This document shows, in pieces, positions 19,469-21,673 of a stretch of 64,000 bases of DNA (position 1 is the first letter of the stretch; every line of letters starts with the position of its first letter). The position numbers and the translations under genes are program-made. The notes under the pieces were generated by a model that saw nothing but the letters and a program-made list of their open reading frames with translations, was not told the origin of the DNA and made no database searches. The stretch is from Marinitoga sp. 38H-ov (GTDB lineage: Bacteria > Thermotogota > Thermotogae > Petrotogales > Petrotogaceae), in NCBI RefSeq assembly GCF_011057715.1, contig NZ_LNGH01000008.1:1-64000 (forward strand), written 5' to 3'.

Positions 19469-19828
19469 ATGAATATCCATCATTTTGTAGAGATTATAGT
19501 TAGTTATATATCAGATATTTCTTATATCATGGCTATTATAGTAATCTTTTTTGGAATGATAAAGGGATTTTCAATCTTTTTAAAAGATGTGTTATTAAAG
19601 AAAAAATCCGAAGAAGCTATATGGGAAAGTCGTTTGGAATTAGGTCATTCTTTTTCTTTAGGACTAGGTTTTTTAATTGGATCTAGTATTTTAAAAACTA
19701 CCGTAGCTCCTACTTGGAATGACATTGGACAACTAGCTACTATTATAGCTATTAGAACAACTTTAAATTTTTTCTTAACAAGAGAAATTAAAGAACATAA
19801 AAAGGAAGTTAGAAATGGAGAAATATAA
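19469..19828 (+). CDS. DUF1622 membrane protein (119 aa)
   Basis: Three hydrophobic segments (about residues 12-32, 60-75 and 83-100) and the DUF1622 signature: RLELGHSFSLGLGFLIGSSIL, then TVAPTWNDIGQLATI, then IRTTLNFFL. Function is unknown. ATG 19469 is preferred over ATG 19463 because the latter is only 2 nt from the AAAGGGGGA site. It overlaps dprA by 14 nt, so the two are probably co-translated, but nothing known links this family to DNA uptake. Confidence 0.85.
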   Translation: MNIHHFVEIIVSYISDISYIMAIIVIFFGMIKGFSIFLKDVLLKKKSEEAIWESRLELGHSFSLGLGFLIGSSILKTTVAPTWNDIGQLATIIAIRTTLNFFLTREIKEHKKEVRNGEI

Positions 19829-20600
19829 AAACGCTATAATTTGGATGAAGGAATTTTTAAAAGAATCTAATAAATCAATAATGATAAATATAAAAAAGAA
19901 TAGAATTCCTTTAATTGACAAAACAGAAATAGAAAAATTTTACAATAATCTAAAAGAAAAAAATATTAAAGTTATAACTTATTTTGATGATGAATATCCT
20001 AATAAATTAAGAAATATTTTTAATCCACCATTAGTATTATACGCAATTGGAAATTCAGAATTATTAAAAAAAGATAGTGTTGGTATTGTGGGATCAAGAA
20101 AATGCTCAGAATATGGAAAAAACATTGCTTATTTTTTTTCTAAAATCCTTTCTGAAAAATATATTATTACTAGTGGTATGGCTTATGGAATTGATACTTA
20201 TGCTCACAAAGGATCTTTAAAAAATGGAACTATAGCTGTTTTAGGGTGCGGCATAGATATACCATATCCAAAATCAAATTATGATTTATATTATCAAATA
20301 ATAAAAAATAATGGTTGTATTGTATCCGAATATGCACCAGGAACTCCTGTACAACCTTTTAGATTTCCTGAAAGAAATAGAATCATTGTTGGTTTGAGTA
20401 AAAGTATTATCGTTATTGAAGCTGCTAAAAAAAGTGGATCTTTAATTACTGCAAAATTGGCTCTCGAATCAGGCATTGATGTTTATGCTGTCCCTGGAGA
20501 TATTAATAGAAAAACTTCAGAAGGAACAAATTTATTAATATATAATGGTGCTATACCTATTATTTCAGAAAATAATTTAAAAGAATTATTTAATATATAA
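19815..20600 (+). CDS. dprA: DNA-processing protein DprA (261 aa)
   Basis: DprA binds incoming single-stranded DNA and loads RecA during natural transformation. The Rossmann-like core is clear: VGIVGSRKCSEYG, SGMAYGIDTYAH, VLGCGIDIPYP, FPERNRIIVGLS and KSGSLITA. The N-terminal SAM-like domain is short and the C-terminal winged helix of the Helicobacter/Neisseria type is missing; the protein ends soon after the core at 261 aa. AAGGAAG lies upstream of the ATG inside the preceding gene. Confidence 0.95.
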   Translation: MEKYKNAIIWMKEFLKESNKSIMINIKKNRIPLIDKTEIEKFYNNLKEKNIKVITYFDDEYPNKLRNIFNPPLVLYAIGNSELLKKDSVGIVGSRKCSEYGKNIAYFFSKILSEKYIITSGMAYGIDTYAHKGSLKNGTIAVLGCGIDIPYPKSNYDLYYQIIKNNGCIVSEYAPGTPVQPFRFPERNRIIVGLSKSIIVIEAAKKSGSLITAKLALESGIDVYAVPGDINRKTSEGTNLLIYNGAIPIISENNLKELFNI

Positions 20601-20635
20601 AGAATTATTTAATTATATTAAAGGGGGCGATTAAT

Positions 20636-21673
20636 ATTAGAAATAATAAAAAAATTTTTATATTTCTTTTATTAGCATTCTTTTTATCTTCATGTTCTTC
20701 CCAAACTAAACCATATGAGTATTTTGCTACAGACAATAATTATACAGAAATTATTGTCGAAGGAAAAGGTGTAAGTTATGATGATGCCGAAAGTAATGCA
20801 AGAGTTCAAGCTTTACAAAATGTTGTAGGTATGAAAGTGTTTAATGAAACAAAAGTTAGGAACTTCAAATTAGTTGATAAAACTATACTATCTAAAACTT
20901 ATGGGTTTATTAAAGGTAGTGAAATATTAGAAAAAAAAGAAGATAATGGAATTTATACAGTAAAAGCAAAATATTTAGTTTCCAAAAATATTGGAGACGA
21001 TGATTTCTTTTATATACTTCACCAAATGAAAAAGCCAAAGGTTGGAGTAATTATTACAAATTTAACAAATGAATTGAATAAAATTTCAAGAACAGCTATT
21101 GAATCTGAACTATCTAAATATGGATTTAATTTATTTGATTCCGATAGAATAAAACAGATTTCTGATTACAACTCATTAGCAAATGAAGGATTGGATGTTA
21201 TTATTACTGGTCAAGTAACTTCAGAATATGCAGGTAAATATTATGGTTTAGAATCTGCTAGAAGTAAAATATTCTTATCATCATATTGGGCATCAACTGG
21301 AAAATTAATATCTTCAATTAATGAAGAATCTGGCGGATCTGATATAACCAAAAACGATGCAATTAAAACAGCCATTAAAAAAAGCTCTCAATTAGCAGGC
21401 GAAAAACTTGCAAAAGATATAATAAAAACTTGGATGGATTATTTAGCTAATGGTCTTCCAATACAAATTATCGCATTAGATGTTTCTAATGATGAATATA
21501 ATCAATTATTAAATAGAATAAAATCTATATTTAAAGTTTATTCACATGTTTATTCAAATAATACAGCTGTGTTTGAAATTGAATCTACAATATTTACAGA
21601 TGATATATATTCGTTATATTTTAGTGATTATATATTAATTAGCCAAAATATGATGCTTATTGTTATAAAATAG
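20636..21673 (+). CDS. Lipoprotein with FlgT-like domain, probable AUU start (345 aa)
   Basis: The frame is open well upstream of its first ATG (20831). The upstream part encodes RNNKKIFIFLLLAFFLSSC, a full lipoprotein signal with lipobox LSSC, and no ATG, GTG or TTG is in frame there. GGGGG at 20623-20627 places the start at ATT 20636. The region just after the signal (IIVEGKGVSYDDAESNARVQAL) resembles the N-terminal domain of FlgT/LPP20-type proteins; a TolB-like fold follows. It should be anchored in an envelope membrane. It follows dprA by 35 nt. The role is unknown; a flagellar or envelope assembly link is only a suggestion. Confidence 0.75.
   Translation: MRNNKKIFIFLLLAFFLSSCSSQTKPYEYFATDNNYTEIIVEGKGVSYDDAESNARVQALQNVVGMKVFNETKVRNFKLVDKTILSKTYGFIKGSEILEKKEDNGIYTVKAKYLVSKNIGDDDFFYILHQMKKPKVGVIITNLTNELNKISRTAIESELSKYGFNLFDSDRIKQISDYNSLANEGLDVIITGQVTSEYAGKYYGLESARSKIFLSSYWASTGKLISSINEESGGSDITKNDAIKTAIKKSSQLAGEKLAKDIIKTWMDYLANGLPIQIIALDVSNDEYNQLLNRIKSIFKVYSHVYSNNTAVFEIESTIFTDDIYSLYFSDYILISQNMMLIVIK

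Follow-up and report, generated by a model that had tools for sequence, protein, structure and literature searches.

An apparent AUU start codon in a lipoprotein gene of Marinitoga sp. 38H-ov and a candidate set of AUU/AUA-start genes in the genus

The window, a stretch of 64,000 nucleotides from contig 8 of the draft genome of Marinitoga sp. 38H-ov (G000; 2.26 Mb, 56 contigs), encodes a lipoprotein of 345 aa plus stop (20636..21673). Its proposed start lies just downstream of dprA (19815..20600; 261 aa), a gene that lacks the part encoding the C-terminal ~65 aa and whose stop precedes the lipoprotein start by 35 nt. Both genes, and all other features given below for this locus, are on the forward strand. 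The lipoprotein frame was bounded upstream by an in-frame TAA (20591..20593), was open from 20594 and encoded RNNKKIFIFLLLAFFLSSC from codon 2. No ATG, GTG or TTG was present in this frame between the stop at 20591 and the first in-frame ATG, at codon 66 (20831..20833). Reading the sequence by eye from the dprA stop (20600) to about 20690 revealed no conventional start in any frame. The region 20620–20700 reads AAAGGGGG CGATTAAT ATT AGA AAT AAT AAA AAA ... TCT TCA TGT. The window contained no Rfam matches.

The sequence AAAGGGGG (20620..20627) is a Shine-Dalgarno site that can form eight base pairs, one of them G.U, with the 16S rRNA tail CCUCCUUU. Its GGGGG (20623–20627) is separated by a spacer of 8 nt from ATT 20636 (20636..20638), the proposed start codon. 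The pairing energy was −12.5, and the spacing of 8 nt falls within the peak of 6–8 nt observed for aligned ATG starts genome-wide. In the predicted RNA fold, part of the Shine-Dalgarno site was weakly paired with U-rich sequence downstream (z −2), which counts against initiation at AUU. As an in-frame near-cognate codon suitably spaced from a strong Shine-Dalgarno site, ATT 20636 is very probably the start, and it is the best supported of the candidates as judged from the sequence. A preliminary description of the locus had reported a complete lipoprotein signal encoded in frame upstream of the first ATG without any ATG, GTG or TTG, and a GGGGG site 8 nt ahead of ATT 20636; both observations were borne out.

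The encoded N-terminus had the features of a lipoprotein signal peptide (20636..20692), with a basic start (RNNKK), a hydrophobic core (IFIFLLLAFF) and an LSSC lipobox ending in Cys20 (20693–20695); the Pfam LPAM_1 profile matched it below the cut-off. A structure model of the protein was of low confidence (mean pLDDT 56). The best Foldseek matches of this model were FlgT (3w1e; E 7.6e-9) and the LPHT ring (8z5n; E about 1e-8), with a sequence identity to the fold matches of about 10%. A profile search matched PDB 9hmf_C, annotated as ‘Lipoprotein, putative’ (E 1.5e-4), and weakly matched LPP20, whereas Pfam gave no FlgT match for the lipoprotein. The product may therefore have an FlgT/LPP20-like architecture: its domain order resembles that of FlgT, by fold match from the low-confidence model, and its N-terminal domain is similar to LPP20/LipL46-like lipoproteins. 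The preliminary description had warned that initiation at ATG 20831 would remove the signal peptide and part of a domain. The model agrees with this, predicting that such a start would cost the domain its first strand and the greater part of its first helix.

The lipoprotein gene was present in all seven Marinitoga genomes compared (the window’s genome and the six congeners G005–G010) and in two more distant members of the family. The signal peptide, the cysteine and the residues that follow aligned from the start across the seven species, and Cys20 was invariant. Against the nearest relative, G008 (81% identical), the 64 codons preceding ATG 20831 had a dN of 0.14 and a dS of 0.81 (dN/dS about 0.17). 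In the mature part of this segment, dN was 0.07 and dS 1.02 (dN/dS 0.07). The codons upstream of ATG 20831 are thus under purifying selection and therefore translated.

A comparison of start codons in related genomes, suggested in the preliminary description, showed ATG in the orthologues of all six other species, G009 among them, and ATT only here; the odd start is not conserved for this gene. In G005, G006 and G010 the region reads AAAGGGGG-ATG-(ATT or AAT)-ATG-(AAA or AGA), and G007 is similar. In G008 it reads GGGGGCATTGT-ATG-ATT-TTA-AGA. The same AAAGGGGG precedes the lipoprotein ATG in G005, G006, G008 and G010. The window has GGGGGCG-ATT-AAT-ATT-AGA, in which ATT replaces both ATGs of the congener motif, and ATT 20636 aligns with ATG in the four congeners that carry ATG-(ATT/AAT)-ATG ahead of the signal peptide. 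The difference between these four congeners and the window points to a lineage-specific switch to AUU. The proposal that AUU 20636 serves as the start thus gained support from its distance to the Shine-Dalgarno site, from this alignment and from selection on the intervening codons.

The upstream gene may help to place this switch in time. DprA was 261–264 aa long in the window’s genome and its sister G008, versus 326–329 aa in four other congeners. Its C-terminal ~65 aa were present in five congeners, and the DprA core domain was intact in the short versions. In G005, G006 and G010, and similarly in G007, the dprA stop codon TGA overlaps the first lipoprotein ATG. With the 3’ end of dprA lost in the window’s genome and in G008, the junction was freed from coding constraint. 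The change from ATG to AUU would be recent, having occurred in the window’s lineage after dprA lost its 3’ end in an ancestor shared with G008.

We propose that the 30S subunit would be held by pairing of AAAGGGGG with the 16S tail, and that ordinary fMet-tRNA (anticodon CAU) would pair with the A and U of AUU. IF3 would discriminate against the mismatch at the third position. By analogy with infC, pcnB and other cases, initiation at AUU would be several-fold weaker than at AUG and possibly sensitive to IF3. The initiator tRNA of this genome, encoded in two identical copies with anticodon CAU, looks ordinary, and an unusual initiator tRNA was rejected as the cause. A relaxed IF3 was likewise rejected, since the IF3 of this genome aligned normally, by inspection, with an IF3 of known structure. 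The tRNA genes Leu(TAA)-Met(CAT)-Met(CAT) form a block that is present in two copies ~2 kb apart (G000:C6:57964-60261), and its Met copies, including the initiator, are identical.

The IF3 gene itself, infC (G000:C28:9140), starts with AGGAGGGATAAGT-ATT-AAA, and its ATT was unchanged in all seven Marinitoga genomes. Since infC begins at ATT in this genome, AUU initiation is to be expected in this cell. Outside Marinitoga, start codons were examined for infC only; in other genera of the family, where readable, this start was apparently ATA, with a Shine-Dalgarno site directly upstream. The infC and lipoprotein genes are alike in having AUU after a strong Shine-Dalgarno site in the same genome. 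They differ in that infC is autoregulated and conserves its odd start, whereas the lipoprotein has AUU in this species only. ATT is used by infC of Listeria (PMC13068326) and AUA by infC of Staphylococcus aureus (PMC13009471). The preliminary description had regarded AUU starts as known mainly for infC. The comparison with infC held, with ATT found in the same genome, but the confinement to infC did not, given other cases in the literature and further candidate genes here.

These further genes came from a scan of 1.65 Mb of the genome (73%), in which starts were placed by Shine-Dalgarno strength and coding potential, blind to codon identity. The test set consisted of genes without a Shine-Dalgarno-backed conventional codon within 12 codons of the implied start. 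ATT, ATA or ATC was found in 29 of 104 of these genes (expected 11.3), in 21 of 47 at an energy ≤ −10 (expected 5.1; p 4e-9) and in 10 of 12 in the strictest set (energy ≤ −11, next conventional codon at least 20 codons away; p 1e-8). Hand curation of this 73% of the genome left about 17 genes with a Shine-Dalgarno-implied ATT or ATA start, and the lipoprotein gene appears to be one of them. The good candidates also include folK, cinA, infC and the genes for an NMO/FabK-like enzyme, an SLT transglycosylase, a HAD protein, a TetR regulator, a patatin-like protein, an AIRS-domain protein, BirA, a radical SAM protein, a second lipoprotein and four unnamed proteins. Mfd and glycerate kinase were taken off the firm list because of an in-frame GTG within the Shine-Dalgarno site, three codons upstream (in every copy of Mfd), and a solute-binding protein (C2:144366-) was excluded because it is probably frameshifted. 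A codon-blind scan of 0.8 Mb of G005 yielded infC and few others. In the window, folD (34961, minus strand) has GTG and TTG inside a GGGGGTGA site, followed by ATT; its start may be a further unusual one, but was too ambiguous to be counted. Elsewhere in the genome (G000:C30:11050-13002), the peptide VFNSPYWNVN recurs every ~20 residues in unrelated frames; the region looks like a CRISPR array with the repeat GTTTTTAATAGTCCATATTGGAATGTAAAT.

Orthologues were fetched for CinA (7 genomes), FolK (5), the SLT protein (7), the FabK-like enzyme (7) and Mfd (6). With Mfd excluded and infC (7 copies) included, five firm families comprised 33 copies, of which 21 had ATT, 12 had ATA and none had ATG at that position. 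For cinA, folK, the NMO/FabK-like enzyme and the SLT transglycosylase, every Marinitoga genome checked had ATT or ATA. By itself, an interchange of ATT and ATA is also what an internal isoleucine codon would show; it is the copies with a nearby upstream stop that force the AUU/AUA conclusion. In 17 of the 33 copies, the stretch from the upstream stop to the AUU/AUA contained no ATG, GTG or TTG. The clearest of these putative families is FolK: all five genomes read TAA-AAA-(ATT/ATA)-TTA after AAGGGGGTA, ahead of the conserved ALGSN motif, and the in-frame stop two codons upstream makes a conventional start unavailable before this motif. Some copies of CinA, the FabK-like enzyme and the SLT protein have an in-frame GTG inside the Shine-Dalgarno site, three codons upstream. 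This GTG is poorly placed for initiation, and AUU/AUA is not forced in every copy. In the G007 draft, cinA, folK and mfd contain several internal stops and frame breaks, which suggests many indel errors or decay.

Taken together, we put the probability at roughly 0.84 that AUU 20636 is the translation start of a real, functional lipoprotein gene and that this gene belongs to the AUU/AUA-start set of Marinitoga. The AUU of the lipoprotein gene depends on a single base, 20638, in one assembly, and the main rival explanation is a sequencing or assembly error in which a true ATG at 20636–20638 had its G read as T at 20638. The ATG of all six congeners would fit such an error, as would the nature of the data: the genome is a draft, it is the single assembly of the species compared, and a few conserved genes elsewhere in it look frameshifted, chiefly on short contigs. 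However, the error rate seems low: out of 246 conserved frames of G005, five appeared split, and of these hits two fall within rRNA and another two on contigs shorter than 14 kb. In the ATG-NNT-ATG motif, the remaining ATG is ATT here as well, and about 17 genes of this genome appear to have AUU/AUA starts, with five families confirmed in independent genomes. We consider an error improbable, with perhaps one chance in ten. The conserved AUU/AUA families do not depend on base 20638.

A loss of the start, leaving either a young pseudogene or a truncated protein made from ATG 20831 only, is considerably less probable still. The lack of a conventional start codon and the rearranged dprA upstream would suit a pseudogene, but the 345-codon frame is intact, the Shine-Dalgarno site is preserved and dN/dS is about 0.17 both before and after ATG 20831. 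We rejected ATG 20831 as the start, since selection acts upstream of it and it is an internal methionine in all seven species, inside the N-terminal domain. Least likely, and very improbable, is entry by frameshifting from dprA, which ends close upstream and whose frame overlaps the open lipoprotein frame by a few bases, or a start at the second in-frame ATT (20630..20632): no slippery sequence was seen in the overlap, a DprA fusion would place non-signal sequence ahead of the signal peptide, and ATT 20630 was rejected on spacing, lying 2 nt from GGGGG as against the genome’s peak of 6–8 nt.

The pcnB gene of Escherichia coli starts at AUU. To our knowledge, AUU/AUA starts have been known for one to a few genes per bacterium. 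The candidate Marinitoga set differs from such single-gene cases in comprising about 17 genes in 73% of a genome and at least five families kept genus-wide. In Borrelia, pncA has an AUU start and PncA was mis-annotated from a later codon (PMC13398362). In S. aureus, cvfC1 (AUU) and ccpN (AUA) are expressed at about 10% of the AUG level and have extended Shine-Dalgarno sites (PMC13009471). In Listeria, non-canonical starts are fixed in six conserved genes and also occur in rsbW mutants (ATT or ATA), and expression ranks as ATG > ATA > ATT (PMC13068326). The sigR gene of Streptomyces starts at GTC and is repressed by IF3 (PMC5472188). A switch from ATG to AUU was counted once in 61,358 ancestral starts (PMC5622118). 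A search of the open-licence literature turned up no earlier description of such starts in Marinitoga.

Gene finders accept ATG, GTG and TTG only, so existing annotations of Marinitoga genomes probably truncate AUU/AUA genes or give them a wrong start. It is conceivable, at somewhat below even odds, that Marinitoga, and possibly more of the family, has tens of genes whose AUU/AUA starts are kept by purifying selection and that form an IF3-sensitive regulon, infC included, with the lipoprotein gene as a recent recruit. The lipoprotein gene offers a dated, lineage-specific change from ATG to AUU that can be set against its ATG sisters. If the AUU/AUA reading is true, about 1% of the genes in this genus would start at AUU/AUA, with conservation between species and with infC among them, and it could be tested there whether the level of IF3 co-regulates a gene set via the start codon.
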